A stretch of 64,000 nucleotides of DNA. Source: Magnolia sinica. Its lineage: Eukaryota > Streptophyta > Magnoliopsida > Magnoliales > Magnoliaceae. Made by a program: the position numbers and the translations under genes. The stretch is from the NCBI RefSeq assembly GCF_029962835.1, contig NC_080584.1:82054862-82118861 (forward strand), read 5' to 3'. Below the pieces are notes generated by a model that saw only the letters and a list, made by a program, of their open reading frames with translations, made no database searches and was not told the DNA's origin. Positions 14,359 to 46,116 of the stretch are shown here, one piece after another. Every line of letters starts with the position of its first letter. Position 1 is the first letter of the stretch.

Positions 14359-14360
14359 AC

Positions 14361-18266: not shown

Positions 18267-18324
18267 AGAGAGGGAGGTGATACACTCCGGATGAAGAAGA
18301 AGAAGGTTTAAAGTGATGTGTCTC

Positions 18325-18335
18325 CAAGTGGGAGA
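18325..18335 (+). other. Polypurine tract of the copia element
   Basis: AAGTGGGAGA just before the right LTR (TGTTAAGATG at 18337), the usual priming site for plus-strand synthesis. Confidence 0.7.
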
Positions 18336-18336
18336 T

Positions 18337-21205: not shown

Positions 21206-21309
21206 CACTACAAGAAAGTTGGGCATATCCAATGCTTTTTTAGCGGCGGCCCGTCACCAACTGTCGGATGCTCGGTCGACTTAATAAAAATAAAAAATAA
21301 AAAACAAAT

Positions 21310-21640
21310 AAAAGCCCTATCTCTCTTTACCTGTCACTGTCTCTCTCTCCCTCTCCCTCTCCATCTCCGCCATCTCGTCTCTCCCTCTCCCATCCCCGAT
21401 CTCTCTCTCTCATTCTCTCTCGATCTCTCTCCCTCATACTCTCTCGATATCTCTCCCTTCCTCTCCCTCCGCCTCTTGATCTCCCTCTCCTCCCTCTCTC
21501 TCGATCTCTCTTTCCCTCGTTTTCTTCGATGTGTTGTTCCTTCTATCTATCTCTAATCGAAGAAAGTAGAAGAAAGAAGAGAAACCAATGTCCCACCACA
21601 AATACTCTCTCTCGATCTCTCTCCCTTCATCTCTGTCTCT
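21310..21640. repeat. CT-rich low-complexity tract
   Basis: Dense CTCTCTCC/TCTCCCTC runs near the left end of the CACTA-like element. The following DNA up to 23006 shows no recognisable gene. Confidence 0.8.
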
Positions 21641-23006
21641 CTCACTTCCCATTTTGATTATCAAAATTTGGGCAGTAGCCATCGCAGCAGCACCCATATT
21701 CGCCGTTGTCCATGGCCGCTGACATCTACATTTTGGTTGTTTGAAGAAACGCTTCAACCAATAACGTGTACCACTATTGTACATTTAATCTCTCTGTTTC
21801 TTTCATACTTTTTTAGCCCATCCATGAGTGGACTAGCCTGATATATGGGAGGGGAACAATCAACATAGACCCACCTCATAAGAGGCAGTGATCCCACACA
21901 TATACCACTTTAGACCATGTATTAAAATGGAATTTCTCACTCCGTTTTTAGTGTATGATTGATTTTGTTAGTTTTTTAGGGCAACTCAATTCTAAGGGAA
22001 GGATTTGCTATGGATAAAGAGCCATTTGGAAGGAGAAATTTCTATGATGGGTTTGGCTGAATTCATATGTTGTTGGAGCACTATTAGTTTTTTTTTTTAA
22101 TTTTTTATTTTTAAGTTTGGGTACTGTTTCCGTTATGGGTTTGGCTGAATTCGTATGTTGTTGGATTTTTAGTAACAAAGTCTGATTGAGTTTACTTTGA
22201 TTCTCTTTTTTCCAATTCGGTTTTGAAAATTTGAATGTTAGAGAAGTGCTACTGTGATTTGCCTGGATGTATTTAAGGGACTATTTTGTGTGTTCTCTAC
22301 ACCATAATGATGTCTTTTAGTTTACCTTTGCTAATCTACAACTCTACTTTTCTTGGCGGGGCAGACTCCTATGATAGCAAAGTACCATTTTGAAAATGGT
22401 GGTGTCTCTACATCCTCAAATGTGGCACTCATGTACGTCTATCCTATCCAGATCATCAGGACTGTGGGCACACTTTGGATGGATCATATCTCTAACGCCA
22501 CACTGATCAAGCAACCCTACTTGTCCAATTGAGGGTGAAATGAGATGGTTTCTATCATATTTTCAGTGTAGTTTTTAGGATTATGCTCTGCCAGCAATTC
22601 TAGATTGCCATATGGTTGTGCCATGTGCCATGTTGAAATGTCACCACTCACCACCATTTTAAGTGGTGAACTATATGAATCTACCCTTCTGGGTGGTGAT
22701 GCATGATGCATCTTTTTGGTTTCACTGGTGCTAATGGTTTAGCAAATCCACATCTTAGTCTCATCCGTTTATACATTGTCAGATTCTAGTTTTTTTTTTT
22801 TTTTTTTCAAATGTTATTTTTGTTTTTCTTTTAACTGTTGTTGTCATTTTGTGGTGGAGCTTTTTCTATTTTTGAATTGTTGGTAGTGCTTTGAACTTGG
22901 ATACTGTTTCATTTTCATTTCTCTAATAATGTTTTTTTTATCACGTATGAAAATACAGTGTATTTTCTTTTTAATATAACTGTGCATGTTTCTGAATGGA
23001 GCTTGT

Positions 23007-25264
23007 TGTTCACTCCCCAAGTATAGGGTTGTGATGTAGTAATAAACTCGGTTAGACCGAGGTCGAATCCCAAGGGATTGAAACCTGTACATTATCTGAA
23101 ACCAGGTAGAAATAGAACTAGCCTAAGATGAAATCTAACTCAAATATAAATTAATGAATAATGGTGAGAGATTAATGTAAAATTTAAGAGAAATCAGAGA
23201 TAAGGAACTAGGGATTCAGAGGATCCACTTGTAGAGATCAGGGAGATCTTAGGCCTGCTTCAAAAATCATGGAAATTAAACTGAACTTTCTCTGATATAA
23301 TTTTAAAGAGATGAAAGGTATATGAATTAGAATGGATTCCATCACCAAACCATGCCCAGGAGACAAAGCAAACAACAGAATTAAACTAATTACCAACCAA
23401 TCAACATGCTATGAAGGTTAGGAAGGATACCGTCATCCGACCATGCCCAGGAGACGATGGTGAACAACAGGACTTCCTAACATCATAAACATAAATAAGG
23501 GAAAAGAAATACTCAAAGCCATCGCAGACCCATTGTAATTTCAGTTACAACAGACCATTCAAAACTGAAAATATTCCCATAATAAAATTAAATCAAAATC
23601 CATTCAATCTAAACAAAAGGCACAGGCATAAACTCTCCCATCACGCTACAAGCTTCACCTCTTAGCCCTAGCTAAGAGGTTTAGCCAGACATGATCTGGC
23701 TAAAATATCTTTAAAACATAAAAGAAAACATTGAAGCGGAAAAAATAGAAAAAGAAAAGGAAGAAAACCAATGAAGCTGGGCCACTCCACGGCTCTTTCT
23801 CTCGTGCTCCTCTCCACGTCCAAGATGAATCCCACTTGAATGCCTCCTCCGATCCCCCTCACACTACAAGCTTCTCCTCTTTATAACACAAACAAGTCGG
23901 TCGGTGAGAACTTTCGCATAGAGAGGCGGTGGAGATGGCGTCTTCTTTACGCACAGCAGGTGCGGACGTTTTACGCATCAGCAACACAAGATACGTGCGC
24001 TGGTTCTTCATAGGGCCCATAATTGCAGTCAATGGAAAAATCTACTCCGTCCATTGGATGCGGCTCGAAAATCCAGTCAGATATGTTGATTTTGGCTCCG
24101 ATTTGGTGTGGCCCACGGACTCTTTCTTGGTGACGTCTACCTGACATTTAAACGGTTGAAAACCAATCGCCATTGTCTTTTTCAAGTCCATCACCTAGGC
24201 ATGAATGAGATGGAATGAGGGACTCTCTTGGACGGTCTGGATCAAACCGTTGACGCACGGTGATGGCCCACAAGATTTGTCCACAGGCTCTGTTATGGAA
24301 CAGAGCCTGCGCATACAGTGCTGTGATGGCTGGTGGGTCCCAGATTGACGTCAGGAGGAGAATTCACGCCGCCCATTGTCTTTCCCTTTAAAAAACATGT
24401 AGACTTGATCGGTTTTGGATCCAAACCGTGGTGCCCCATGATATTTTCATTCCACCGTCCATCTTGATGTTGAACGGATATTTCTTATGATCGGGTGCAT
24501 GGGACCAAAAGGTCACCTTGGTGAGGGTCCAGCCTCCCCTATGGACGCAATAGACAGTCCAGATTCTGCAAAAGGATGACGAGTGGGGCCCACTAGTGAA
24601 AAATGGATGGACAATGGTAGGACACTTTGTCCTTTTTTGATTTGGAGAAGATGGAGTCAATTAGCGTGTGCTGACCGATTTTGAGAATTTTAGTGCATGG
24701 CTGGTGCACTTGTCTACCGTGCACATGTGATGTACATGAGGTCCTTTGAAGATGTTTGTGAGAAATTCGCTCCATCCATCTGTATTCTCATCTCATTTAA
24801 CGCATTGATACCAATTTTGAAGCATAACCAGATAGCGGGTGGGCCCAAAATCAGAGTTTTAGGGGCTGATCTGTCCATTGGGCTACTTCCATAGGGATAA
24901 AACAGATGAAATTTGACGTGTATGGTTAATTTATGGTGCTTAGGCTATATATGGAGTTTTAAACTGAACAGATGGTGGGAACCCTGTGATCTTGCATTCT
25001 GGACGTCTTTCAGGCCACTTGAGCTTCAGTTTCTCGATTTTCTCGGATATCTGGCGTGTAAATCCGTTGATCTTGGTCTCTCAGGGTCCGTCTCATGCTT
25101 TGGTGAATTTGGAGCGTCATTCCATGCATTTAACACCCCTTTTCAGTCCAGGCTTTTAAAGTCACCTTGCAACACAAACACAAGTAAATTGGGCTGTTAA
25201 ACAGTATCCTATTCATAAATCCAAGTAATAACTGGGTCTGATATGCAATATTGGACCCTCAACA
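23007..25264. mobile_element. Second solo-LTR-like unit (2,258 bp)
   Basis: Begins TGTTCACTCCCCAAGTATAG and ends TTGGACCCTCAACA, matching the unit at 11678-13805 along its length (shared blocks such as CTCGGTTAGACCGAGGTCGA and CCATGCCCAGGAGACAA). Flanks are CTTGT and CTTGC, a 4/5 match to a 5-bp duplication. It is nested in the large CACTA-like element. Confidence 0.75.
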
Positions 25265-26369
25265 CTTGCACTTGTTGGTATGAGGTGGTTTTGGTTCAAC
25301 CTCGAAAAAGGTGGGACTGGGGTTTTTTGCTTCTTTTACCAATACATTTTCTTTTGGCAACATGTATCCAATCACCAGTGTAGTATCTAACATGCATTTG
25401 AATTTTTGGCTGGAAAATTTTCTTCCTGTAACTTTGCATGCTAAGTAATCGACCTCAGTCCGAGCTCTCCAATTAGGCAGCAATGTAGCAGTTTGTCCTC
25501 CATGCTTGTAAGTTTTACGACTTTTTGAAGGAAGATTCAAAAATTAAGCATTCATAGATAAAATGAGCATTCCTAAAACATTTGTGTAACATCTATGTAG
25601 TCTTTGTATGGCATGAGGCCCACCCCACCATTTGTGTGGCATCTAATTAACCTATCCAATAGGATTGCTCTATCGGAATTGGGGTTTTTGTCTTTTGATG
25701 ATTTTTCAATTGGGTTATTTTTTCTTTTTGATTTGGATGCAGAGATTTCCAGTAACATCCTTTTTTTATTTGATTTGGTGTTTTAATACTGATTTTGATC
25801 TTCTTCTTCTTATTGTTTTTTAAATATAGCTAACTTCATTCAGGATTAAGAAACACATCATTTGCAGGTTAGTTCTCATTACACAAACTGTATACGCAAG
25901 GCAGTAAATTTTGGTAACTTAATATATGAAACTCGATTGCAGTTTATCTTTCAAAAGAATAGAGCGAGCCAAAAGACTTCCTGGTGACCCATGGGCTGAG
26001 TTATGTCTATTCCTAACAGAGCGAGCCAAAAGACCTCAAGTAGCCCAAAGGCCTAATGACTAGGCACATCTAAGCCTACCATTCTTGTAATATTTTGAAC
26101 CTTGGTCACCTCTAAATACGTTATCAAAACCATTGATCTGATGGGCCTCAAATGGGTTTGCTGTATGAACTTCTATATTAAACAATTGCTGAACATTGTA
26201 GTATTTACTGATCTGGTTTTTGGGATTTTCTTCTTTCCTACTCAAAGTAGAAATGTTTATATAATGATTATCAGCTATTCATATAGCAAACACACTCATA
26301 AACGGCAAAATTTGGATTGAACTGAATTCTAAACAAAAAAAAAACTATAATTTGATTTTGGGTTTTCAG
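25265..26369. other. Non-coding stretch before the NPF exon
   Basis: AT-rich DNA without a recognisable gene. It may represent the intron upstream of the captured NPF exon. Confidence 0.35.
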
Positions 26370-26573
26370 GGATATGTACATCTCATAATCCAAGCACATA
26401 AAAAGAGCCTGTGGCCGGCATTGCCATGCGAGAAGTCATCGTGTGTGAAAGGTGGCCAAGCTCTATTATTTTACAGTGGAATCTTCTTAATGGCGTTGGG
26501 AGGGGGCGGGATTCAAGGGGCACTTCTAGCTTTAGGTGCAGATCAGTTTAACCAAAAGGATTCCAAGGAGCTT
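26370..26573 (+). pseudogene. NPF (NRT1/PTR family) transporter exon fragment
   Basis: After an acceptor TTTTCAG at 26369 the plus strand encodes GYVHLIIQAH, then LPCEKSSCVKGGQALLFYSG, then LMALGGGGIQGALLALGADQ followed by FNQKDSKE. This matches the exon of plant NPF proton-coupled transporters that carries the conserved ALGGGGI and LGADQF segments, membrane helices 3-4. The family then continues with a FFNW motif, which is not present: a poly(T) tract follows. One exon of a roughly 600-residue multi-pass membrane protein is left. It closely resembles NPF4-type proteins from memory, but the subgroup is not certain. Confidence 0.75.
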
Positions 26574-27374
26574 TTTTTTTTTTTCTCGATAGCAGGCACA
26601 TTTTTTAAAGAAAGCTCAGGGTCTTTGTCTTCTCTTTCCGAAAGGTTCTCTGATGGGCAGGTGAATTTGAATTTCCTTGGAGTTTTATTCTCTCTGTCAT
26701 TTTGGGGTAGGCGATTTTGATTTGTGCAAAATGTGGTTATTGAAAGTGTCTTTCATGCAAGCAATGGATAATCTATTGGAAATTATTTGCATCGATTTGG
26801 AGGTGGCTTGGCAGGTTGGATTTGGGCAATTTTGGAGCTTTTGAAGGAAACAAATATTCGCATGCTTCCCCTTTTGCAAGAATAATGGAGGGTGGTTATG
26901 CTCGGTGGCTTCTACAAGTAAAGTTGTTTTCTTGTATTTCTTTGTACTTCACCGTTTAGCATATAGATTGTGGAACCACAATATGTTTACTTAGCAGCAA
27001 CCATGTCTGAACAAATGTATTATTATTATCATATCTATTATTATTATCATCATTATTATTTGTTTCTCTATTGCTTTCTCATAATTCAATGCTTTAGTTT
27101 CAGCATATCCTATAATGTCCAATGTTAAAATGTCTCTTCATCCACATTAACTTTCTCTTCTTTAACAATCCTATAGCACATTCATGTAATTTTTATATGT
27201 ACTTTGTAATTGTGGGTGTTATATCCGTATCCATGGCCATGATATGTTATTAGTATTATATCAAGCAACCTCGGGGGCTACGAAGGTTCTGCTTGTTGTA
27301 GGTGTAAATGTAGAAAAGGATGAATTTTGTGTTGTACATTTGACTTAATTACAAATTTAAATTCATGTTTTCAG

Positions 27375-27465
27375 CTAGAAAAAGGTGTAGATGGGCTATT
27401 TGATAGTTTTGCTAGATTGGATTCACGTGTCTCTAGCGTGGGACTGATGATGCAGAAAAACTGAA
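27375..27465 (+). pseudogene. SEC10: SEC10 (exocyst subunit) exon fragment
   Basis: After TTTTCAG at 27374 the sequence encodes LEKGVDGLFDSFARLDSRVS followed by SVG, nearly identical to plant SEC10 (LEKGVDGLFDSFARLDSRIS as I recall it). It then degenerates; the expected QTAAKIG reads as LMMQKN and a stop. SEC10 is a subunit of the exocyst, which tethers secretory vesicles at the plasma membrane. Only part of one exon is left. It has the same strand as the neighbouring NPF and Alba pieces. Confidence 0.75.
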
Positions 27466-27827
27466 TTCTTCTACTTGTGGCAAGCAGAGGATCCAGATTC
27501 ATGTTAACCCTTCTGTCTTTTGCTGTTTTATTTTTGAGACAAAGATTACCAGATTTTGTTCTGAGACACTGTTTTTGTCATCTAAAAAACATAATTTCTT
27601 ATCATTGATTTATGTTCTCTTATTTAGTAATTTTCAGGTAACAAGTTTTAGAAATTCCAATCTTAGTTCTATAAAATGGTTGTACATCTCGTTTGAATGA
27701 TCAATAAAGTTACAAGTGGTGTGTTTCCACTTTTCTGGGAAAAAAAGTATTGTATTTTTTGTGTGCATGGTGTTTTTTTTTTTTTTTTTGACTACTGCTG
27801 ATAACATTGTATTTACTATTTGCATAG

Positions 27828-28134: not shown

Positions 28135-29881
28135 ACTTCTTATGTTGTTAGTCCCCCTATATATTGTTACACATACAATTTGTCATTGGTAGAGTCTCAT
28201 GTCTTATCTAATAGCATAATACACACTAATAATTAGCCATTTACATTGATTAGTTGGTGCTAGGTGTCACAAAGTTCGTGATAGCAGAACTGCTTTACTT
28301 GCAATGGATGGGATCCAAACCAGCCAATTTATCTTTACATCAATTCAACTGGAACGACTCATGATGAGGGTGAAACGGTATGTTGGTTCTCATTTCCAAC
28401 TTGGCTTAGTCTTAGACTCAGTTGGACAAGGTTATAGGTGCTTCAAATTTAAGTTTTCGAATCTCTACAGTTCCAATTTTCAGAGCAACTGTTGAATTTG
28501 TTCAATGCAAACCTGAATCTTAATTTTTTTCTAGATTTTGTTATTATTTGTACACTTACCAGTCTATTTTTTTTTGTTCAATGCAAATCTAAACCTATGT
28601 TTTAAAGAAATTGATGTTTTTTTTTCTCTAGTCTGGCATGTTAGGTCCCTGGATGCATCAGGCTTTTTGAATGCACAATCTGTATACTTGTGAATGGGAA
28701 GCAAACATTTTGTCTCATTGTAAAGACAATTTCTCCGATATATGCTATCGATCAAAGGAATAAGGTTGTGTTTAAATGCAATGTGATAGTTGCAACAAAT
28801 TCAATAGACAGGAAATGACGAAGGGTACGTAGCAATGGGCTGGGTAGTTTGCCCGACCCAGTTTTGGACTAGGCTTGGACCTACTAGCTAGCCCATGGGT
28901 TGGGCTCAGGCTTCCCATGCATGGCTTGATTAATTTGCAGGTCAGGCCTAGACTCATGTCACTTTAGCCTGGCCTGTTCGGCTAACTATGTGCATGTATT
29001 GAATGTATACCGTTGGTTTAATTCCTCTGCAATGTTTTTTTTTCTTTTTGCATTTTTTTTTCTTTCTTTGTGCATTTGTTCCCCACATGATCAATCGATA
29101 TTAGGTCTCTTTCTCCCTCTCTGTCTCACTTTTTCAGTTTCTCTTCCTATCTCACATCTGTTTGAGACTAGACATGTGCTCCATTCCAGTTGGGCATATC
29201 CTCATGTATGTTCCTTTTGGCAATATTACATTTTCTTGACTTTCACATAACAATATTACATTGGTTGTTCATTGACTTTCACATAACAACATTTTCTTGG
29301 AAAGTAATTCCTGCTAGTCAATGGAAGCTTGTTGCATGTCAAAACTTAGTTCATTTTTTTTTTAATACTTTAAATGGATCTAGTGGTTGAATATTGCATC
29401 AATTGAAAGCATCTTTATGCCAAATTATGTGACCTAGAATATAACTTCCATCCAATCATGTGCATGTGACTTCCCTTCTCTGCATTTAAAAAAAAAAAAA
29501 ACTTTCAATCAATGATTAGTATAATGCCTCTTATACAAATCCCATACATATGTTTCCTATTCCTTCTTTCCTTTCTTACCATTTGTATCTTATGATTTTT
29601 GTTTAATGCAATCGTCATTCCTATTCATAGGTTTGTATATAGCTGTCATGACACAAACAACCTCATTATCTTTTGTAACTTGATGGGGGTTAAAAATCAA
29701 AACTTTAATTTATGATTGACCGAAGCAAAGGAGAATTTTGGTCTTTAGATTTATGACTGACCGAAGAAAACTTTAATTCATTGGTCTTTAGATTTAAGAC
29801 TGACCGAAGTAAAGTATTTGCACTTTTTTAGTCCAAAAATGGAAATGGGTGTGGTGTTTGTAAATAAAAAAGGTGGGTGTA
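28135..29881. other. Unassigned DNA up to the Tekay insertion
   Basis: Poly(T) tracts, short open stretches and a tract near 28840-28980 with GGGCTGGGT/GCCCATGGGTTGGG inverted motifs. No recognisable gene. Confidence 0.35.
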
Positions 29882-32800
29882 TGTAAGACCCGTGTCCCAA
29901 TCCGTACCATTTCATTAGCTTTCGCGGTCCTTCCGGTCAAATTCCGGCAACCTTCGCACCGTATTCGGTGTTTGCGCACGATCCTAAGCCAGGTCCCGCA
30001 CACCGACGTCGGCTCGATCCGAAACTTATGTCTTGGTGATCGCGTCGTCGCCGCGGTTCCAACGCCGTGACTTGCGCACCGAACCGATACTCAGGTAAGA
30101 AGATGCCGATCAGCGTTTATTCCGAAGAAACACCGCGCGTTGCGGATTTCGAGGGAATCTCTACACAATAAGTCCCATCAATCATCATTAAATGCAACCT
30201 TATCTCAAGTACAACAACCCATACCTCTTTCTTCACAAAGTCAATTCTCTCTCTCTTCACCCATCCCTCCTTTACTCACTTTTCAAACAAACCCATGCCC
30301 CATTAATTACACCCACCACTCCATCACCTCATATCACTCCCATCCTCTCATTTTCTCTCTCATTTTCTCATATCTCTCCAAGCAACCCCAAGCCCCAAAC
30401 GTCCAAGCCTCCTCTCCCTCTCAAGTGTGGTCCACCTTCCATCATCCATCTACACCCTCCCATCTCTCATCCTCACCATCAAGAGTCCATCATCCTCCAT
30501 CAAAGTTGAAGCTGAGGGGCATTGGAGTCTAAGAGACCAAGAAGAAGGAAGATAAGGTGGGTGTTTTTCCATTAATTTAAATTTTAGGGCCCACTTGTTG
30601 GTGGGACCCATTTGGATGTATGTGATTTAATCAAGAGGGCCCATAGTGGCGGGGTTCCTCTATCTCACCGTGTATCTCTCTCCTTATCTCTCTCATTCTT
30701 TCTTTGTAATGGTGTGGATCCCACCGATAGGTGTTACATCTCCTCCGTCCATCTATATCAGACGGTGTGGCCCACTCTATTATAGGTGATGATCCGCACC
30801 ATCCACTGTTTGGATGGGCCCAATACATCTTTATATATATATATACACATATATGTTATATTTTATATAATACATGTATATAATATATAATATAATATGT
30901 ATTTATATACATATATAATATAAGGTATATATCATATATATATATATATATATTTATTTATATTGGTGGGCCACGTCCACGTGGGGCCCACCACAATGAA
31001 GTGATTGTGAAGTCATCCAGCGTCCAGGGACGCTGGACGTTTACAACGTAAAGTGCTAATGCTTTAAAAGAAAAGGGAAAGAGAAGAAAGGAGTGGTGGG
31101 CCACTCATGCAGGCCCCACCTTGATGTATATGTAAGATCTGAGCCGTCCATGTTGTTCCTCAACTCATTTTAGGCGTTGAGCCGAAAAATGAAGTTGATC
31201 CCATTTTCTGGCGGGCCGTACCATAGGAAACAGTATCCCTACCTTTGATTTGCTCCCTGATGCTCCTGTACATCTGAAAAAGGTCAATATTGGACTCTAT
31301 GGGTTGGTATCAAGCCACAGAGACTAATGGACGGAGTGGATCGTACTAAAGCGGGCCCCACCTAGGAAAAACTGCAGAAAAACTATTTGTTTTAAAAAAA
31401 AAAAAAAAAAAAGGAAGAAGCAAGCAGCAGTGCTGCTGCTACTGCCAGCGCACGTACAGGCGCTGCCTGCGCTGGCCACCCACGGGCGGACGGGCTGGGG
31501 GTTCACGGCCCAGCTGTGGGCCCCATCTTGATGTGTCTCGACAATCAACACCGTGCGTTTGATGAGTACCCTCAGTCCACGCGTCCACGTCAAAAATCAG
31601 CCTTATGCGGAACGCAGGTGGGCCACACCATCTGAAATCATATGAAGACATGTCTAAACATATAGAAGTACTTGGTGGGGCCTACCTAAGTTTTGGATGT
31701 CGTTGAAACTTGGTCTGTACGGTCATTTAGATGGGACCCACACAATGGATGGGCTGGATTGTGAATCACACCTCGGTGGGCCCCAAAACAAAAAAAAAAT
31801 AAAAAAATAAAATAAAATAAAATTTTAAAACAGCAGCATATTTAAACGGGCGGCCAAGAGGCAGGGACCCACGGCTCCATCCGTGGGCCCCACCATGATG
31901 TATATTTTGTATCCACACCGTCCATTTGGTGGGCCACTATTTGACATGGACCCCTCCCCTCAAAATCAGGCCAATCCAGCGCTCGGGCGGCCCACATCAC
32001 AAGAAACAGTGTGAATTGAACTCTACCATTGAAACCCTTTCTGGGTCCACAGAAGTTTCAGATCAAGCTGAAAATTGTTGTTCCCCTCCTCCCTTGCCCG
32101 TGTGACCTTATGAATAAGTTGGATTCCAAATGAACATTTCAGTGGGCCTTACCCAAGGTCCAAGTGACCTTATGAATAGGTTGGATTTCAAATAAATATT
32201 ATGGTGGGCCCTAGGCCCATGTGGTGGAGCCATATTGATATATTTCTAGCCGATTGGGGAGGCCCACCTTGATATATATATATATATAAGGCCCATGAGG
32301 TTAGGCCCATTCGACGGATTGGTGGCCCGATGTCGAGGCCCACTCTGATATATATAAGGGCCATGTTACGAGACCCATTGTGAAGTTTTCAAAGGCCCAT
32401 GGGTTATGGCCCATTGCAATGTACATAAGGCCCACTAATGCGGCCCACTTGACTTATATAAGGCCCATATGAGATGGCCCATTTGATGTATCTGAGCACT
32501 ATGGGTCGAGGCCCAATGAGATGTATATTAGTCCATTGCAATGTGTGATTTCCTATGGTTGTGTAATGGTACTTTATGGCGGGCTATGCCTTGGGAACAA
32601 TGTTGGTTTGACGTCCACATTGTAAGGACAATGTTGGTTAAATGTCCGCATTGTCACACTCCTTAAGGCCACTGATAGGTCCATACTTATACTCTGCAGG
32701 CCGTCTAGGCCCATTTCTGTGATACGCAGAGCCCATCCCTATATGCATGTTTAGTATAGATCCATGGTTCATGATCATTCGCATCATATGTATGCCTGAC

Positions 32801-34005
32801 GTGAGGAGTGACCGATCATAGCATATGCCTTTGGGCAGACTGTTTATGGGCTCCCTGATAGGCGGAGTTGCCCCATATAAGTGCATGGTACATACAGACT
32901 GTTGCATGACTGATAATGTGACTCATGCACTTGCATTTGTGTGATTATAATTACTATATGCCCTAGCGACATCAGGGCCATAGCCTCCACAGATACATCG
33001 TGGATGGTAGGATTGGAGACCGGAAATATTTGATTGTAGCATACGGGCACCATAGATGTCCCTGGGTGAAAATCCCTAAACCCGATGGTACCAGAGGATG
33101 ACTCCAACGTCGAGACCGAGTGGATATACGAACGCATGAGGGCCGAATACCAGGAGGCCGCGTCTCCCACTGTGTCGTGGTCGGTTGGAAAGGAGTGTGG
33201 CCTTACTCGCCTGAGGGTAGGGGGCAATACTAGGCTGAGTTTGACCAGCTCGCGAATGGGTCCGCTATCGACGTGCCGGATATGTATTGGCAGACTATTG
33301 GTCAGGCGGATAGTGAGGTTTCTTACGCTCATTTGGACTGTGCGGCTAGGAGAGCGACAGTGCCATTTGGAGTGTATTGAACCCCGGTGATTATCCAGAA
33401 TGAGAACTGTACTGATACATGTTGAGAATTGGCATGCTTGAGTTGCATCTCGCATCGCATGGCTGTGTATGGCCGATAGCATTCATATCTTGCACCGCAT
33501 AGCCTCGGTACGGCTGATTGCATTCATGTGCTCATCATCATGATTCCGCATCACTCTGACCTTGCATTTTGAGCACGTCTATATTGCGCACACACTTACA
33601 CCACCCTCTAAGCTTTCCATAAGCTTATGCACGATTGATGCGTGCAGGTGACGTCAGGACGCAGTCGCAGCCATAGTCTGGCCATAGTTGGAGCGTGCAG
33701 CCGAGCTTCTGGAGTTTTGTTTCTTTTGTTGCATTGTATTTCCCCTTCTGCCGTATTGTACTAAAAAGTTTTTGATCATAGTGGATTTTGTGGTGGTGTT
33801 CTTGTGGTTATTAGTTGTGGGTTATGCTTTTGTTATGCTCATTATGAATCAGACTGATGATTTGAAATCCTCCTTGTAGTATCCCAGGATCGGAACCTGG
33901 TGAATGGGTGCCGGGATCCGAAAATGGGGTTCTACGGAGGCTGTCGGCGCCGGATTCGGCGATCGGGAATTTTGTGAGCCCGGTTTCCGAGTTCGGGGCG
34001 TGACA
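29882..34005 (+). repeat. Left LTR of the Tekay-like element (4,124 bp)
   Basis: TG...CA termini. Contains a CT-rich stretch (30230-30500), TA microsatellites (30834-30955), a block with repeated TATAAGGCCCAT-type units (about 32140-32530), and a GGGCCCCACCATGATGTATA region (31885) shared with the MITEs at 46.7-48.6 kb. Open stretches such as 30140-30532 are in non-coding LTR and recur in the right LTR. Confidence 0.95.
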
Positions 34006-34010
34006 GAAGT

Positions 34011-34022
34011 TGGTATCAGAGC
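34011..34022 (+). other. Primer-binding site of the Tekay-like element
   Basis: TGGTATCAGAGC, the usual initiator-Met tRNA primer match, lies five bases after the left LTR end. Confidence 0.9.
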
Positions 34023-34157
34023 CCAACATTACATGTCTGCTATGAATGATTACGTCCTAAGTTTGGATAGCCTAGCGATCTTTTATTGCAGACCCTTAAC
34101 GTGTGTGCCTTCGCGAGCCTTTAAGTTGATAGGCACCTTCGCTCTTTCCTGTAGGAC

Positions 34158-37118
34158 ATGGCGCGTAGGAGAGTGACCCGATCGACTCCCGCACCACCTG
34201 AGACTTCAGCTCCACCACCTGCGGCTCCCGCACTACCACCTACGACACCTGCTCCGCCACCAGAGATTCCTACCGCTCAGCCTGAGGATGTCGCTCCTCT
34301 ACCAGAGATTCATACCGCCCATCCTGAGGATGCTACACCTCCACCAGAGACTGGTGCGGATCCGACCGTATCTGTGAGTGCTTCTCAGTTGCAGCAGATG
34401 CTGCAGGCTGTGACGGCCGCACTCCAGGGGCAGAGCAGACACTCGGTTGTTTCACCGGCCCAGGCAGAGCAGGAGCGCGCGAGTGCCCTACTTCGAGAGT
34501 TTCGACAGTTTGATCCTCCACGATTCCAGGGCGAGCCAGATCCGACAGCAGCTGAGAGGTGGCGCTCCGATGTGGAGAAGATTTTTGATACCATGTCATG
34601 TACGACCGAGCAGCGAGTTCGGTTGGCGGTGTTTCTTTTTCAGGGCGAGGCCGAGCACTGGTGGACCTCGGTTACCCGCGTCGCAGGACCCGACTACGTC
34701 TGGACATGGGATGATTTTGTAGACCGATTCGAGGAGCAGTACTTCCCTGACCACATTCGACGCCAGAGGGCACTAGAGTTCGAGACTTTGGTACAGGGGG
34801 ACATGACCGTGGCACAGTACGCGGCTCGTTTCGTGGCGCTGTCGAGGTTTGCGCCATATATGATTGATGATGAGGGGCGGAAGGCCCGCCGTTTCGAGAG
34901 CGGCTTACGTTACGGTCTTCGAGGCCGTGTGATTGGGCACGAGCTTCCGACCTTTCAGGCTGTAGTGCGGAGGGCTCAGATCTACGAGACTGAGTGGGCC
35001 GGCGCGCAGGCCGATAGAGATCAGAGGAGGGGTCAGAAGAGGCAGACCCCTTCCAGCAGCTCCCAGCAGCAGCGGCGATCACAGAGGTATAGGAGCCACC
35101 CACCTGCTAGAGCACCAGCAGCCCCAGCAGCACCTCCAGCGCCACCCCAGCAGCCGTTTGCAGGGACTTGTTTTGGATGTGGTGGGTCAGGGCATCGCCT
35201 GTCTGAGTGCCCTCGCCCTCATCTGCAGCAGTCGAGAGGATCACAGCAGCCTCACCTACATCCGCCGAGAGCACCACAGCAGCGACCTCGGCGGCGGCCT
35301 CCAGCACAGCAGCGACCACAGCCACCTCAGCCACCGAGGCCCCAGCAGCAGCAGAGGCAGCAATATAGGCCGCCGCAGAGGCAGCAACAGCACCAGGGAC
35401 CTCAGAGGGGACAGGCACCTCCCCAGCCAGCTCAGGCTAGGTTCTACGCGGCTCAGCAGGACCCGCAGTCATCCGGAGGAGTTGTCGAGGGTATACTTCC
35501 CGTCTCTTCATCCATCGCACGAGTATTATTTGATTCTGGCGCTTCTCACTCATTCATGTCCGAGGGTTTCTGCCGATCGACTGGATTGCCGACAGAGTCT
35601 ACTAGTGAGGGATTGATCGTATCGACGCCCTTGGGGAGGACCACAGTATTGGGCCGTTTCTGTCCATCTTGCCCGGTTCTTGTCGGTGATATCTTTTTGC
35701 CTGCTGACTTGTTTGTGCTGCCGATGACAGATTTCGACGTTATCTTGGGCATGGATTGGCTTGCTGAGTATCACGCTATCTTGGACTGTTCTGCGAGGAC
35801 AGTCACATTCTGCATACCAGGCTTGCCGCAGTTCCAGTTCATCGCTGAGCCCAGAGGAGAGCCGTTATCTTGCCTGATGTCCTGCGCTGTCGAGGAGCCT
35901 ATTGCCTTGTGTATTGATCAGTGGCCGGTTGTTTGCGACTTCCCCGACGTATTCCAGGAGATTCCAGGATTGCCTCCTCGCCGTCATATCGAGTTCCAGA
36001 TCGATCTTGTGCCCGGTACCGCACCTATCTCGAAGGCCCCGTACCGTATGGCACCGATGGAGTTGCGTGAGCTGCAGCGTCAGTTGGACGAGTTGCGTGA
36101 GTTGGGATTTATTCGTCCGAGCAGTTCGCCTTGGGGAGCGCCGGTACTCTTCGTTAGGAAGAAGGATGGCTCGTTGAGGCTCTGCGTAGATTACCGCGAG
36201 CTCAACCGGGTCACGATTAAGAACAAGTACCCGCTCCCAAGGATAGACGATTTATTTGATCAGCTGCAGGGTGCACAGTTCTTTTCGAAGATTGACCTGC
36301 GTTCTGGTTATCATCAGATTCGTGTCCGAGAGGAGGACATCCCGAAGACAGCCTTCAGGACGCGCTATGGTCATTTTGAGTTTCAGGTCATGTCCTTTGG
36401 ATTGACCAATGCACCCGCGGTCTTCATGCAGTTGATGAACGAGGTCTTTCGTCCATATCTCGATCAGTTTGTTGTGGTCTTCATCGACGACATTCTGATA
36501 TATTCGAGGACCCGTGAGGACCATATGCAGCATCTGGAGATCGCCTTGCAGACCCTCCGTGCCCACCAGCTATATGCGAAGCTGGAGAAGTGTGAGTTCT
36601 GGCAGGAGGAGGTGAGATTCCTCGGTCACGTGGTGACGAGGGAGGGTGTCGCAGTGGACCCCTCGAAGGTTGAGGCAGTGCGTCAGTGGGGTCAGCCCAC
36701 GACTGCGTCCGAGATCCGCAGTTTCCTTGGTTTAGCGGGATATTATCGGCGTTTCATTGAGGGCTTCTCCCGTATTGCAGCCCCGTTGACCAGGTTGACT
36801 CGGAAGGGCGCAGAGTTTATTTGGAGTGACGCCTGTGAGCGAGCATTTATGGAGCTGAAGGACCGTCTGACGTCCGCTCCTGTCCTCACTCTTCCCTCTG
36901 GGAGTGATGGATTCGTGGTATTTACCGATGCTTCGCGTATTGGATTGGGTGGTCCTGATGCGGACGGTAGACCTGTAGCATTTGCGTCTCGCCACTCAAG
37001 GTTCATGAGCCGAACTACCCCACGCACGATTTGGAGTTGGCAGCTCTTCGCACCGAAGGTGTGGAGACACTATCTCTATGGGGTTAGGTTCGAGCTCTTC
37101 TCGACCACAAGAGCTTGA
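34158..37118 (+). CDS. Ty3/gypsy gag, protease, RT and partial RNase H
   Basis: A 986-residue open frame starting MARRRVTRS. Proline-rich N-terminus (1-75), retrotransposon gag domain (about 115-235), Pro/Gln-rich linker, CCHC zinc knuckle [14 protein letters not shown] (about 338), aspartic protease with DSGASHSF (about 458), reverse transcriptase (about 600-780) with [10 protein letters not shown], and the start of RNase H with FTDAS (about 921). After [11 protein letters not shown] the frame is disturbed: the expected Cys-Val-Leu segment is changed and the downstream part reads out of frame until the stop at 37118. The polymerase and protease motifs are intact. The product would be a capsid-reverse transcriptase polyprotein acting in a cytoplasmic particle. 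Confidence 0.9.
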
Positions 37119-38071
37119 AGTATTTATTCTCTCGAGCTGAACATGAGACAGAGACGCTGGATGGAGCTTCGAAGGATTATGATTTTGACCTCCGGTACCA
37201 CCCGAGGCAAGGCGAATGTGGTGGCGGATGCCCTTAGCCGTCGACCACGAGGCCTAGTGGCACATATGATGATTCATGAGTGGAAGATGCTCGAGGATAT
37301 AGCAGAGTACGACTTTGATTTTGGTCTGCGGTCTTCTATCGTTCAATTATTGAGCTGTCGATTCAACCCTCTCTTGTCGCAAGGGTGATCGAGGCTCGGT
37401 GCAGACAGATGAGTCGTTACGGGATTACCGAGCGGATGCGGCATCGAGAGTCGAGGCAGTTAGCGATTGGTGCTGATGGTGGACTTCGCTTTAGAGGCCG
37501 ATTGTGTGTCCCGGATATTCCTGAGTTGCGCAGAGATCTTATGATCGAGGCACATCGATCGCGGTTTTCCATCCATCCTGGCTCGACGAAGATGTACCGT
37601 GATATGAGGAGGCAGTATTATTGGGCAGGGATGAAGCGCCAGATTGCCAGTTTTGTGGCCGAGTGTGACACTTGCCAGCGTGTCAAGGCCGATCATCAGA
37701 GACCCCCTGGTCTATTGCAGCCGTTGAGCGTCCCGATGTGGAAGTGGGAGCACGTATCCACAGATTTTATTATGGGTTTGCCAAGGACTCAGCGCGGTCA
37801 TGACTCTATCTGGGTTGTCGTGGACCGTCTGACGAAGTCGGCGCACTTTCTTGCGATTCGTGCGACTTGGCCCTTGGACCGGCTTGCGAGGTTGTTCATT
37901 GAGGAGATTGTGAGACTGCACGGCGTACCAGTCTCGATCGTTTCTGACCGAGAGCCGAGGTTCACGTCTCGATTTTGGACTTTCAGAGAGCTATGGGCAC
38001 CGATTTGCAGCTCAGCACCGCGTACATCCACAGACGAATGGGCGGACCGAAAGGGTCAACCAGATCCTTGA
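37092..38071 (+). pseudogene. Ty3/gypsy RNase H end and integrase, frameshifted
   Basis: RNase H tail is visible near 37115 (LKYLFS) and 37200 (ANVVADALSRRPRG) in a different frame. The main integrase frame (37385-38071) has the HHCC zinc finger (HRSRFSIH and [11 protein letters not shown]), the first catalytic Asp in STDFIMGLP and the second in [10 protein letters not shown] frameshift near 37980 changes the frame before the third catalytic residue. The region is otherwise collinear with chromovirus integrases. Confidence 0.85.
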
Positions 38072-38155
38072 GGATATGCTTCGCCTGCGTGATTGACTTC
38101 GGTGGTACTGGGATGAGCATCTGCGATTGGCCGAGTTCGCATACAATAACTATCG

Positions 38156-38791
38156 GTGACCATTGGCATGGCTCCTTTTGAGGCATTATATGGCAGACCG
38201 TGCAGATCTCCGAGTTGTTGGACCGAGGTTGGAGAGCGGCGTCTCCTAGGTCCCGAGCTTGTGCAGGAGACATCAGAGGTTATTGATATCATCAGGCAGA
38301 GGATGCGCACAGCTCAGAGCCGGCAGAAGAGTGTTGCTGATCGCCGGCGTCGTCCCTTAGAGTTTGATGTAGGGGACCGTGTGTATCTCAAGGTCTCGCC
38401 TATGAAGGGCATAGTTAGATTTGGAGCGAAGGGTAAGCTTGCCCCGAGATTCATAGGACCTTTCGAGATCACTGAACGCATTAGCGCTGTGGCCTTTCGG
38501 CTTGCCTTACCATCTCAGTTGTCTGGCGTCCACAACGTTTTTCACGTCTCTATGTTGAGGAAGTGTGGGTCAGACATAGTTCCTGTTATCGATTGGCAGC
38601 CGTTGGAGGTTCGTGAGGACGCTTCTTACATCGAGCAGCCAGTTCGTATCCTTGATCGGAAGGAGCAGGTCCTCCGAACCAAGGTCATTCCCTTGGTAAA
38701 GGTTCAGTGGGGTCACCATTCTGTGGATGAGGCATCTTGGGAGCGCGAGGCTGAGATTCGAGAGCGCTATCCTCATCTCTTTGATGATTGA
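38156..38791 (+). pseudogene. Ty3/gypsy integrase C-terminus with chromodomain-like tail
   Basis: Open frame with MAPFEALYGRPCRSP (holding the third catalytic Glu), the GPFEI motif region (KLAPRFIGPFEITERI), SGVHNVFHVSMLRK, and a C-terminal EASWEREAEIRERYPHLF. The tail corresponds to the chromodomain-type targeting module of Tekay/Del chromoviruses, which is known to direct integration to chromatin marks. It is separated from the integrase core by frameshifts between 37980 and 38156. It ends at a TGA at 38789. Confidence 0.85.
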
Positions 38792-38910
38792 TTGTATGTT
38801 GTATGTTATACGTTGTCTCTGGTATTTATATGGCGATGCCTTGCTTCCTCTTCTATTATGATTTATGTTTTCTTGTGATGATTGTTTAAATTTCGAGGAC
38901 GAAATTTTTA

Positions 38911-38925
38911 TTTGGAGGGGAGAGC
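38911..38925 (+). other. Polypurine tract of the Tekay-like element
   Basis: TTTGGAGGGGAGAGC directly precedes the right LTR (TGTAAGACCC at 38926). Confidence 0.85.
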
Positions 38926-41900
38926 TGTAAGACCCGTGTCCTAATCCGTACCATTCTGTTAGCTTCCGCGGTCCTTCCGGTCAAATTCCGGCAACCTTCG
39001 CACCGTATTCGGTGTTTGCGCACGATCCTAAGCCAGGTCCCGCACACCGACGTCGGCTCGATCCGAAACTTATGTCTTGGTGATCGCGTCGTCGCCGCGG
39101 TTCCAACGCCGTGACTTGCGCACCGAACCGATACTCAGGTAAGAAGATGCCGATCAGCGTTTATTCCGAAGAAACACCGCGCGTTGCGGATTTCGAGGGA
39201 ATCTCTACACAATAAGTCCCATCAATCATCATTAAATGCAACCTTATCTCAAGTACAACAACCCATACCTCTTTCTTCACAAAGTCAATTCTCTCTCTCT
39301 TCACCCATCCCTCCTTTACTCACTTTTCAAACAAACCCATGCCCCATTAATTACACCCACCACTCCATCACCTCATATCACTCCCATCCTCTCATTTTCT
39401 CTCTCATTTTCTCATATCTCTCCAAGCAACCCCAAGCCCCAAACGTCCAAGCCTCCTCTCCCTCTCAAGTGTGGTCCACCTTCCATCATCCATCTACACC
39501 CTCCCATCTCTCATCCTCACCATCAAGAGTCCATCATCCTCCATCAAAGTTGAAGCTGAGGGGCATTGGAGTCTAAGAGACCAAGAAGAAGGAAGATAAG
39601 GTGGGTGTTTTTCCATTAATTTAAATTTTAGGGCCCACTTGTTGGTGGGACCCATTTGGATGTATGTGATTTAATCAAGAGGGCCCATAGTGGCGGGGTT
39701 CCTCTATCTCACCGTGTATCTCTCTCCTTATCTCTCTCATTCTTTCTTTGTAATGGTGTGGATCCCACCGATAGGTGTTACATCTCCTCCGTCCATCTAT
39801 ATCAGACGGTGTGGCCCACTCTATTATAGGTGATGATCCGCACCATCCACTGTTTGGATGGGCCCAATACATCTTTATATATATATATATACACATATAT
39901 GTTATATTTTATATAATACATGTATATAATATATAATATAATATGTATTTATATACATATATAATATAAGGTATATATCATATATATATATATATATATT
40001 TATTTATTTATATTGGTGGGCCACGTCCACGTGGGGCCCACCACAATGAAGTGATTGTGAAGTCATCCAGCGTCCAGGGACGCTGGACGTTTACAACGTA
40101 AAGTGCTAATGCTTTAAAAGAAAAGGGAAAGAGAAGAAAGGAGTGGTGGGCCACTCATGCAGGCCCCACCTTGATGTATATGTAAGATCCGAGCCGTCCA
40201 TGTTGTTCCTCAACTCATTTTAGGCGTTGAGCCGAAAAATGAAGTTGATCCCATTTTCTGGCGGGCCTATAGGAAACAGTATCCCTACCTTTGATTTGCT
40301 CCCTGATGCTCCTGTACATCTGAAAAAGGTCAATATTGGACTCTATGGGTTGGTATCAAGCCACAGAGACCAATGGACGGAGTGGATCGTACTAAAGCGG
40401 GCCCCACCTAGGAAAAACTGCAGAAAAACTGTTTGTTTTAAAAAAAAAAAAAAAAAGGAAGAAGCAAGCAGCAGTGCTGCTGCTACTGCCAGCGCACGTA
40501 CAGGCGCTGCCTGCGCTGGCCACCCACGGGCGGACGGGCTGGGGGTTCACGGCCCAGCTGTGGGCCCCATCTTGATGTGTCTCGACAATCAACACCGTGC
40601 GTTTGATGAGTACCCTCAGTCCACGCGTCCACGTCAAAAATCAGCCTTATGCGGAACGCAGGTGGGCCACACCATCTGAAATCATATGAAGACATGTCTA
40701 AACATATAGAAGTACTTGGTGGGGCCTACCTGAGTTTTGGATGTCGTTGAAACTTGGTCTGTACGGTCATTTAGATGGGACCCACACAATGGATGGGCTG
40801 GATTGTGAATCACACCTCGGTGGGCCCCAAAACAAAAAAAAAAAAAAAAAAAAAAAATTTAAAACAGCAGCAGCAGCGCTGCTGCTGCTGCAGTGACGGG
40901 CGGCCAAGAGGCAGGGACCCACGGCTCCATCCGTGGGCCCCACCATGATGTATATTTTGTATCCACACCGCCCATTTGGTGGGCCACTATTTGACATGGA
41001 TCCCCCTCAAAAAATCAGGCCAATCCAGCGCTCGGGCGGCCCACATCACAAGAAACAGTGTGAATTGAACTCTACCATTGAAACCCTTTCTGGGTCCACA
41101 GAAGTTTCAGATCAAGCTGAAAATTTTTGTTCCCCTCCTCCCTTGCCCGTGTGACCTTATGAATAAGTTGGATTCCAAATGAACATTTCAGTGGGCCTTA
41201 CCCAAGGTCCAAGTGACCTTATGAATAGGTTGGATTTCAAATAAATATTATGGTGGGCCCTAGGCCCATGTGGTGGAGCCATATCGATGTATTTCTGGCC
41301 GTTGGGGAGGCCCACCTTGATATATATATATATATAAGGCCCATGAGGTTAGGCCCATTCGACGTATTGGTGGCCCGATGTCGAGGCCCACTCTGATATA
41401 TATAAGGGCCATGTTACGAGACCCATTGTGAAGTTTTCAAAGGCCCATGGGTTATGGCCCATTGCAATGTACATAAGGCCCACTAATGCGGCCCACTTGA
41501 CTTATATAAGGCCCATATGAGATGGCCCATTTGATGTATCTGAGCACTATGGGTCGAGGCCCAATGAGATGTATATTAGTCCATTGCAATGTGTGATTTC
41601 CTATGGTTGTGTAATGGTACTTTATGGCGGGCTATGCCTTGGGAACAATGTTGGTTTGACGTCCACATTGTAAGGACAATGTTGGTTAAATGTCCGCATT
41701 GTCACACTCCTTAAGGCCACTGATAGGTCCATACTTATACTCTGCAGGCCGTCTAGGCCCATTTCTGTGATACGCAGAGCCCATCCCTATATGCATGTTT
41801 AGTATAGATCCATGGTTCATGATCATTCGCATCATATGTATGCCTGGATGTGAGGAGTGACCGATCATAGCATATGCCTTTGGGCGGACTGTTTATGGGC

Positions 41901-43044
41901 TCCCTGATAGGCGGAGTTGCCCCATATAAGTGCATGGTACATACAGACTGTTGCATGACTGATAATGTGACTCATGCACTTGCATTTGTGTGATTATAAT
42001 TACTATATGCCCTAGCGACATCAGGGCCATAGCCTCCACAGATACATCGTGGATGGTAGGATTGAAGACTGAAAATATTTAGTTTTAGCATACGGGCGCC
42101 ATAGATATCTCTGGGTGAAAATCCCTAAACCCGATGGTACCGGAGGATGACTCCAACGTCGAGACCGAGTGGATACACGAGCGCGCGAGGGCCGAATACC
42201 AGGAGGCCGCGTCTCCCACCGTGTCGTGGTCGGTTGGAAAGGAGTGTGGCCTTACTCGCCCGAGGGTAGGGGCAATACTAGGCCGAGTTTGACCAGCTCG
42301 CGAATGGGTCCGCTATCGACGTGCTTAGCAGGTATTATTGGCAGACTATTGGTCGGGCGGATAGTGAGGTTTCTTACGCTCATTTGGGTGTGCGGCTAGG
42401 AGAGCGACAGTGCCATTTGGAGTGTATTGAACCCCGGTGATTATCCAGAATGAGAACTGTACTGATACATGTTGAGAATTGGCATGCTTGAGTTGCATCT
42501 CGCATCGCATGGCTGTGTATGGCCGATAGCATTCATATCTTGCACCGCATAGCCTCGGTACGGCTGATTGCATTCATGTGCTCATCATCATGATTCCGCA
42601 TCACTCTGACCTTGCATTTTGAGCACGTCTATATTGCGCACACACTTACACCACCCTCTAAGCTTTCCATAAGCTTATGCACGATTGATGCGTGCAGGTG
42701 ACGTCAGGACGCAGTCGCAGCCATAGTCTGGCCATAGTTGGAGCGTGCAGCCGAGCTTCTGGAGTTTTGTTTCTTTTGTTGCATTGTATTTCCCCTTCTG
42801 CCGTATTGTACTAAAAAGTTTTTGATCATAGTGGATTTTGTGGTGGTGTTCTTGTGGTTATTAGTTGTGGGTTATGCTCATTATGAATCAGACTGATGAT
42901 TTGAAATCCTCCTTGTAGTATCCCAGGATCGGAACCTGGTGAATGGGTGCCGGGATCCGAAAATGGGGTTCTACGGAGGTTGTCGGCGCCGGATTCGGCG
43001 ATCGGGAATTTTGTGAGCCCGGTTTCCGAGTTCGGGGCGTGACA
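38926..43044 (+). repeat. Right LTR of the Tekay-like element (4,119 bp)
   Basis: Same termini and contents as the left LTR. Differences seen by eye include microsatellite length near 39880-40010, a short deletion at 40266 relative to the left copy, a CAGCAGCAGCAGCGCTGCTG palindrome at about 40866 in place of CAGCAGCATATTTAAAC, a change near 42325, and deletion of a short GCTTTTGTTAT segment near 42876. Confidence 0.95.
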
Positions 43045-43387
43045 GTGTATATAGTTGATCCCTTTCTTCAGCGGATTATTTGTGGAAGAGAAAGTTAAAA
43101 AGGAAAGAAAAAAGAATACCAAGTTGAGTTCTATGATTGCCCATTTTTTGTTTTTGGGTGAATTTAGATATCGTATTGCATTTATTTATTTTGTTATGTA
43201 GGAAATGATGGAGCAGGAATTCTAACAGGTTCGCTTGCAGGATTGTCCATTTTAGCTTTAGTAGTCTTACCCAAATGGTCCAACTATTGATGATAGAAAT
43301 TGAATAAACTTGATAGAATTTCAAATTAATTGCTGAAATTTCACCATTACTTATACTTTTGTGATTAAATACTCCGATTTTCATATT

Positions 43388-43645
43388 TCAGTATTGGAAA
43401 TTCATAATGATATGTCCTGCTTGGAGCAAATCAATATCACAAGTACAACCTGGAAAAGCAACCTAGTTGAATCCTTGGAGGAGCTTGCACCTGCTTGCAC
43501 ATTAGATGTGAATTTTCCTGCATGGTAATATCACCCTGAAACAATAACTTGTTTCATCATTACAAATGAATTTTATTTTGCCTCGGTTATAGATTGAAGA
43601 ATCCTTGGAGGAGCTTGCACCTACTTGCACATTAGATGTGATTCG
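43388..43645 (+). other. Unidentified coding-like stretch with a local duplication
   Basis: A plus-strand reading gives LEIHNDMSCLEQINITSTTW, then NLVESLEELAPACTLDVNFP. I do not recognise the family. A 41-bp block (ATCCTTGGAGGAGCTTGCAC followed by CTRCTTGCACATTAGATGTGA) occurs twice, at about 43471-43511 and 43599-43640. It may be another captured exon, but no clear splice pair is seen. Confidence 0.3.
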
Positions 43646-43649
43646 GTCC

Positions 43650-45110: not shown

Positions 45111-45111
45111 G

Positions 45112-45740
45112 ATTGAGCTTGCAAAAATGTTGTTGGTGGAGGGACAAAGTCATCTTTTTGTACATTGGCCTGAACAAGGTGTTGATAAGGAAGAAAAGAA
45201 AAGTTTCTTTGATCAGGTTCATTTTCATGGCACTTTTTTTTTTTTGGTTATTATTATTTTGGTTCTAATGAGTACAAGAACCTTGTATTCCATGCATTCC
45301 CAGTATATTTTTACAACTCAGCTATTGTATCCTGGAAATATTAAATGGTCTCTGTTGATTTCCAAGTCCAAGCAGCAAAAGTTTAACATCAGTTTCAACT
45401 TTTAACCTTCCATTTTCCTCACTCAAACATTTATTTTTGTTATTATTATGATTATTTTGAAATTTATCTTTGGAAGCCTTGCTGACCACAAATTTCTGGT
45501 AGAAGACCAAACTGATTTTGATGGGTTTCTGGAAACCTACATTGCTTTGTACCTGTCAGCAAGATTGTTAATACTCTTCACATATCTGCTTATTGATGTC
45601 AAGTAGCTCTTTTCTATAGGTAACTCGGCTTAATTCAAGCTATCCAAGTGGTTTGGCATTATATATTCGAAATGCTAGGAATTTATTAGCAGATTCAAAA
45701 GCAGGGAAAAATCCATTTAGTGGCTTTACTCCTTCGGGAA
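45112..45740 (+). pseudogene. USP: UDP-sugar pyrophosphorylase gene fragment, two exons
   Basis: Exon one, 45112-45216 (acceptor TTGCCAG, donor gttcat), encodes [20 protein letters not shown] then [15 protein letters not shown]. Exon two starts at 45620 after TTTCTATAG and encodes [20 protein letters not shown] then [19 protein letters not shown]. Plant UDP-sugar pyrophosphorylase has these two segments in succession (AEGQAHLFEQWPEPGV; RLNSSYPGGL; LLADSK.GKNP..GFTPS). The enzyme makes UDP-sugars from sugar 1-phosphates and UTP in the cytosol. The catalytic GG motif lies further downstream and is not present. No stop is seen within the two exons; coding similarity ends near 45740. Confidence 0.85.
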
Positions 45741-45837
45741 GTGAATCTATTATTTTTGTTTTGCAATATGTGTTTCTTGTACATTTCTGCCAGATTTTTG
45801 TCTTCAATTTTACTTTTTTTTTTTTTTTAAATGAGAA

Positions 45838-45928
45838 TGATTTGCTCTATGGCTACGGTTGCATTGTTGGGCTCGTTATCTATAGCTACGGATTTTATTT
45901 GTAGCTTTTGGCCAATTTTCTGGTAGTG
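45838..45928. mobile_element. CACTA-like terminus with GCTACGG repeats
   Basis: Read on the minus strand from 45928 the end is CACTACCAGAAAATTGGCC, followed by GCTACAAATAAAATCCGTAG-type units. It matches the terminus and repeats of the element at 7365-7750. Its left partner was not found. The pyrophosphorylase exons lie just inside it, so the captured genes may have belonged first to this inner element. Confidence 0.6.
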
Positions 45929-45934
45929 TAGCAA

Positions 45935-46114
45935 AAACCAGCGATTTAGCGGCGTCCAGCACAATCATCAGTAAAGGTCCTGACCGCTGGTAAAGCCTTC
46001 ACCGACCACGGCTTTACCGGCTGTTTGCTGACCGCGGGCAAAGGATTTGCCGACGGTTTTCTGGGTCTTTGCCGACGGTTTTGACTGCCGGTAAAGGCCA
46101 GTTTTCTTGTAGTG
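45935..46114. repeat. Right subterminal repeats of the large CACTA-like element
   Basis: Alternating GCCGACGGTTTT and CGGTAAAGSCC motifs in both orientations just inside the terminus at 46114, typical of transposase-binding subterminal arrays. Confidence 0.6.
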
Positions 46115-46116
46115 GT

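Follow-up and report, generated by a model that had tools for sequence, protein, structure and literature searches.

In soybean, the CACTA transposon Tgm-Express1, which resides in the wp allele of F3H, is a 5.7-kb element containing five gene fragments with exons and introns. It is intronic, and spliced chimeric transcripts are formed (PMC1947982). Another soybean CACTA element, the 20.5-kb Tgmt* in F3'H, has been reported to possess asymmetric subterminal regions (PMC2613891). Host coding DNA between CACTA ends is the hallmark of Pack-CACTA elements, whose mechanism is credited to Catoni 2019 (via PMC8903248 and PMC13317346), and the fusion of adjacent insertions has been put forward in print as a way in which Pack-TYPE elements originate (PMC8903248, section 9). 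The target-site duplication of CACTA elements is given as 3 bp (PMC8978399, PMC10741241, PMC2613891), and PMC8903248 prints 5 nt. The subject here is a locus of Magnolia sinica, in a stretch of 64,000 nucleotides (contig NC_080584.1, positions 82,054,862 to 82,118,861; referred to as the window, whose positions are used throughout), where a CACTA-like insertion of 24,909 bp interrupts a gene of the nucleotide-binding leucine-rich-repeat (NLR) type.

The locus resembles Tgm-Express1 in its CACTA-type ends, in the presence of several unrelated gene fragments with introns, and in its location in a host gene. In contrast to Tgm-Express1, the insertion is exonic, its shell (the part left when nested retroelements are set aside) measures 9.5 kb and houses retrotransposons, and the host gene is otherwise lesioned. 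The likeness to Tgmt* lies in large size, a position within a host gene, imperfect 13-bp ends, and asymmetric subterminal repeats; however, Tgmt* is reported to have a 3-bp duplication (ATA) and a gene product compared with transposases (PMC2613891), neither of which was found here. Pack-CACTA and other Pack-TYPE elements are matched by host coding DNA between CACTA ends, by the failure to find a transposase, and by a structure that fits the fusion of neighbours (PMC8903248, section 9), but the duplication here is non-canonical and the element is known from one locus. A literature search, judged by titles and abstract openings, gave no report of this insertion. Overall, the locus is best read, with good though not full confidence, as a non-autonomous CACTA-like element with about five host gene fragments that inserted into an NLR exon and that consists of a composite shell with nested retroelements.

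An insertion splits one NLR gene

The insertion, its borders, and the two halves of the gene are as follows.

21206..46114, no strand assigned: the entire CACTA-like insertion, 24,909 bp with its nested elements counted, delimited by its termini and by the junction as compared with uninterrupted relatives
21206..21224, + strand: left terminus, CACTACAAGAAAGTTGGGC
46096..46114, - strand: right terminus, reverse complement CACTACAAGAAAACTGGCC, sharing 16 of its 19 bases with the left terminus (counted by eye)
21204..21205, no strand: GT, left copy of the 2-bp duplication
46115..46116, no strand: GT, right copy of the 2-bp duplication
46117..46642, - strand: NLR 5' half, up to the P-loop, with a premature TAG (46318-46316); Pfam NB-ARC 0.0094, below cut-off
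18975..21205, - strand: NLR 3' half, NB-ARC and LRR, with five premature stops and a 57-codon in-frame gap near 19850

The gene is of the coiled-coil (CC)-NB-LRR type, as indicated by matches to PF00931 (5.9e-37), PF23247 (8.2e-9), and PF13855 (3.5e-16). A protein search with the NLR scored 7,972 candidates, 1,396 of them at E <=1e-5. Among the best 120 of these 1,396, which were listed, the nearest was P0001, an uninterrupted disease resistance protein (At4g27190-like) of Magnolia sinica itself. P0001 is of the same NLR type as the split gene and differs from it in having no stops, a P-loop that reads GKTT, and the 57 residues that the split gene is missing. The 5' piece aligns without gaps to residues 1-144 of P0001 (127/144 identical), the 3' piece covers residues 146-941 (674/739 aligned pairs identical), and together they give 801 identities among 883 aligned residues for the whole NLR. 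The junction codon corresponds to residue 145, a histidine, and no residue is lost or gained across the insertion. A second uninterrupted relative, P0002, concurs: the two pieces map to its residues 1-175 and 177-959. That both pieces are contiguous in P0001 and P0002 shows directly that the insertion split a single gene. A first-pass annotation of the window had predicted that the halves join in frame and had proposed an alignment with NLRs of relatives, which thus gives the predicted result. A PDB search with the 5' half returned no relevant match.

The annotation had further counted 930 codons in the joined gene, and this arithmetic is correct: counting from the first of two candidate start codons (46675) through the stop codon (18977-18975) and leaving out one GT gives 2,790 bases. 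However, the start Met of P0002 matches the second Met here (46642), so that, by this alignment, a frame of 919 codons from 46642 is the likelier natural one. Likewise, the annotation described a CC-NB-LRR gene split at its P-loop. A CACTA-ended insertion does split such a gene, but the junction codon (His145) adjoins the P-loop, sitting just after it and not inside.

What identifies the inserted DNA as CACTA-like? Its ends have the CACTA..TAGTG form in short terminal inverted repeats, as in CACTA (En/Spm) elements. A 12-mer, CACTACAAGAAA, is identical in both termini, stands inverted at 21206 and 46114, and is flush with NLR coding sequence on both sides. Four copies of the 12-mer are present in the window, arranged in two pairs that face each other, against an expectation of about 0.008 (both strands, equal base frequencies). 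The left flank reads TGATGT and the right flank GTGCTTC, with GT as the sole repeated bases. Both the inverted termini and the bordering GT were already noted in the first-pass annotation and are borne out by the terminus sequences.

Layers of the insertion

The first-pass annotation treated the 24.9 kb as a single CACTA element. This had to be abandoned because retroelements are nested inside, and the insert can be separated into three layers: a 13.2-kb Ty3-type retrotransposon, a probable solo long terminal repeat (LTR) of 2.3 kb, and a shell of about 9,478 bp.

29882..43044, + strand: Ty3-type LTR retrotransposon, 13.2 kb, with LTRs of ~4.1 kb and the target-site duplication GTGTA on both sides
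23007..25264, no strand assigned: probable solo LTR, flanked by CTTGT and CTTGC (4/5 alike), its LTR nature judged from its ends

The LTR pair of the Ty3-type element differs by a Kimura two-parameter distance of 0.014 over 4,094 aligned bases. Domains for gag, protease, reverse transcriptase, RNase H, and the integrase zinc domain exceed Pfam cut-offs in this element, while the integrase core (0.0047) and the chromodomain (3.2e-4) fall below them. Two stretches of the probable solo LTR have matches outside the insert, at 11677-12377 (85.5%) and 13310-13805 (76.7%). Both retroelements are nested in the shell and likely arrived after the insertion into the NLR gene.

Gene fragments in the shell

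The shell carries fragments of host genes between its terminal repeats, as is the case for Pack-TYPE elements.

26268..26717, + strand: open frame with a fragment of an NPF (NRT1/PTR) transporter; Pfam PF00854 3.2e-8, PDB NPF2.10 1.2e-4
27372..27443, + strand: SEC10 fragment, 22/24 residues as in Magnolia sinica P0151
27828..28118, + strand: two exon fragments of an Alba protein with a retained GT-AG intron; second exon disturbed in frame, splice sites placed by eye
28254..28380, + strand: fragment of CLPR3, a chloroplast Clp subunit, with a 1-bp frameshift
45622..45745, + strand: fragment matching a solved chain named MbUSP, PDB 5.3e-7

All five lie on the + strand, opposite to the NLR gene, an arrangement with a chance of 1 in 16 if the fragments were independent. 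The Alba piece keeps its intron and was therefore captured as DNA and not as spliced mRNA. The NPF fragment additionally matched an NCBIfam peptide symporter model at 1.3e-5, below its cut-off. A PDB search with the SEC10 piece gave no relevant match. The CLPR3 piece matched Magnolia CLPR3 at 4.2e-4 in a protein search (5 proteins among 6 candidates) and an NCBIfam model at 7.9e-5, and scored 0.18 in Pfam and 0.023 in the PDB. A predicted Magnolia sinica protein of 170 residues, P0245, opens with this CLPR3 stretch and has a precomputed match to PF00333; possibly it, too, is a chimeric gene model built of captured exons.

The MbUSP chain is presumably a UDP-sugar pyrophosphorylase, in keeping with the chain length; a literature search for the name did not find it. 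Designed repeat proteins likewise match this piece (best 0.0011), and neither Pfam nor NCBIfam gave a match for 45622-45745. The stretch 45114-45216, for which a PDB search gave no relevant match, we take by eye to be the likely preceding USP exon. As for other open reading frames (ORFs) of the shell, 22335-22529 had no match, and 43337-43525 matched only DUF1899 in Pfam, at 0.1.

Decay of the NLR gene

The first-pass annotation presented the joined gene as open over its 930 codons. This does not hold, as there are six in-frame premature stops (TAG at 46318-46316, TAA at 20669-20667, TGA at 20465-20463, and TAG at 20204-20202, 19811-19809, and 19337-19335), and the open stretch that spans the joined flanks extends over 245 codons. 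The residues of P0001 at the six sites are Q, L, R, W, Q, and Q; those of P0002 are the same at the first five, with H at the sixth. There is also the gap near 19850, which amounts to 57 residues, in frame, relative to both P0001 and P0002, and the P-loop is altered (GLGGIGKIAIMK here versus GLGGIGKTTIMK in P0001). Because of the stops and the gap, the NLR, as judged from its reading frame, is a multiply broken pseudogene on grounds beyond the insertion.

Five of the six stops fit a single C-to-T or G-to-A change relative to P0001 (TAG from CAG or TGG, TGA from CGA; source codons inferred), the pattern that deamination of methylated cytosines would leave. A wider comparison covered 866 sites aligned across the three sequences, with 162 of other difference patterns dropped. 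Of the other residue changes unique to the window copy, 20 of 33 permit a change of this sort, versus 8 of 28 of those unique to P0001 (Fisher p 0.020), a lopsided comparison in that P0001 is available as protein only and its changes were traced from the window codon. When five of the six stops are counted, the window figure becomes 24 of 38 (p 0.007). Despite the stops, there is no net frameshift over ~920 NLR codons (18975-46675). Such decay without frameshifts is unexpected, and a C-to-T bias is a possible explanation, the only one at hand.

Was the gene already a pseudogene when the element landed, so that the insertion had no functional consequence? This is a substantial possibility, though not the favoured one, and it is compatible with the CACTA-like insertion. 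It is encouraged by the six stops, the 57-codon gap, the changed P-loop, and the excess of C-to-T and G-to-A changes unique to this copy. However, the same decay would be expected after an insertion. The stops and the deletion may have preceded or followed it alike; nothing at the locus dates them.

Termini and their pairing

The right end of the insertion contains more than one terminus.

45929..46114, - strand: right subterminal region, 186 bp, with two exact copies of CCGTCGGCAAA
45809..45928, - strand: internal CACTA-type terminus, the third of the insertion, CACTACCAGAAAATTGGCC, set 186 bp in from the right end

Subterminal repeats are present at the right end, and none are evident at the left. 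The internal terminus at 45928 is related to a terminus on the - strand that ends at 7745 (alignment score 63, best of 300 shuffles 36). This kin, a CACTA-type terminus at 7526-7745, has GCTACGG-rich subterminal repeats. Beyond the first 13 bases, the left end of the insertion is no closer to the internal terminus than chance readily allows (57/300 shuffles scored as high). The possibility that the left end and 45928 together bound the NLR insertion was rejected, as the flanks (TGT and TAG) mismatch and the NLR resumes only after 46114.

A second CACTA-like element lies at 52673-59159. It is flanked by AGA on both sides, a clean 3-bp duplication, and has a 42-bp, 16-copy subterminal tandem array at 58412-59090; no transposase was seen in three of its ORFs that were scanned. 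This element served as a control for the comparison of ends.

Several results weigh against a CACTA-like element bounded by 21206 and 46114. An exact 3-bp target-site duplication is absent from these borders, which read TGT on the left and GTG on the right. When the first 13 bases are included, the left and right ends are alike (2/300 shuffles reached the score), but beyond these bases 70 of 300 shuffles scored as high. In contrast, the two ends of the control element are alike beyond base 13 (0/300 shuffles), and the right end at 46114 is nearer to the left end of the control (0/300) than to its own partner. Furthermore, no transposase domain was detected in 12 whole-frame Pfam scans of the two shell parts, whose only match was a weak one to Alba, or in single scans of 11 shell ORFs, fewer than half of the ORFs on the list; the whole-frame scans are insensitive, having missed the PTR fragment found by a single-ORF scan.

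The end comparison with the control speaks against simple left-right pairing and slightly lowers the confidence in the insertion as a CACTA-like unit. The pairing of left and right ends, as far as sequence can tell, rests on the 12 to 13 terminal bases together with the NLR junction. Regarding the duplication, which the first-pass annotation took to be of 2 bp instead of 3, it is correct that only GT is repeated. However, a 3-bp duplication with one base lost would look identical, and the GT fits either event, the two being indistinguishable here. Because the 3-bp duplication is not found, the element is named CACTA-like and not a proven member of CACTA (En/Spm).

Possible origin of the shell

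How might such a structure have formed? The element with its fragments inserted into coding sequence, directly behind the P-loop codons of an At4g27190-type CC-NB-LRR gene, and split the gene; the mechanism was presumably cut-and-paste by a transposase supplied from elsewhere. The ~9.5-kb shell appears to be composite, given the third CACTA-type terminus that persists near its right end, and plausibly derives from two adjacent CACTA insertions that moved as one by their outer ends. It is conceivable, though rather doubtful, that the locus preserves an intermediate of gene capture: two neighbouring insertions of different CACTA families, one of which keeps its right end at 45928, would have moved by their outer ends, taken along the five or so same-strand fragments, and landed in the NLR exon with a shortened duplication.

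An alternative is that the termini belong to different elements that inserted separately near the same NLR site, followed by a deletion between them, so that the 24.9 kb was never one mobile unit. The dissimilarity of the left and right ends beyond base 13, as opposed to the alike ends of the control, agrees with this, as do the extra terminus at 45928 and the lack of an exact 3-bp duplication. However, the two junctions coincide in one NLR codon, with GT alone repeated and the residues on either side complete, which a deletion would hit only by chance, making this alternative unlikely.

One-strand fragments with introns are common in Helitrons. That a Helitron gathered the fragments and later entered a CACTA element, the CACTA part being the outer shell only, would accord with five fragments on one strand, at least one with an intron, and with 5 candidate ends in a relaxed hairpin-plus-CTRR scan of the shell (0-4 in 20 shuffles), but seems quite improbable, since a strict scan (CTRR then T, stem of at least 6 with at least 4 G/C), admittedly a weak test, found no candidates (also 0 in 40 shuffles), and the only relaxed candidate preceding a T, at 22728, lies left of all fragments on the + strand and cannot close around them. 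No convincing Helitron ends thus emerged from either scan, and the fragments are still best regarded as cargo of the CACTA-like element.

Neighbourhood of the locus

A retrotransposon at 13807-18963, copia-type by eye, has LTRs of ~555 bp that are 90.8% identical and ends 12 bp from the NLR stop codon. Its left LTR abuts LTR-like sequence ending at 13805. The one ORF scanned had no Pfam match, and no matching 5-bp flanks were seen. Directly upstream of the NLR start, the region 46715-48530 contains several related, partly palindromic repeats, and 46735-47197 matches its own reverse complement at 71%. Further away, a hAT dimerisation domain is encoded on the - strand at 62524-62871 (9.9e-29); three neighbouring ORFs in 61482-63961 had no Pfam match.

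Significance

The insertion at this locus is real and belongs to a known class of event, with more layers than the first-pass annotation described. It appears to provide a magnoliid case of CACTA-like insertions that carry several gene fragments, and it shows one route by which a resistance gene becomes broken. The close relative P0001 supplies an uninterrupted reference for the NLR gene, and thanks to the third terminus within the right end, gene capture by fusion can be put to the test at a single locus.

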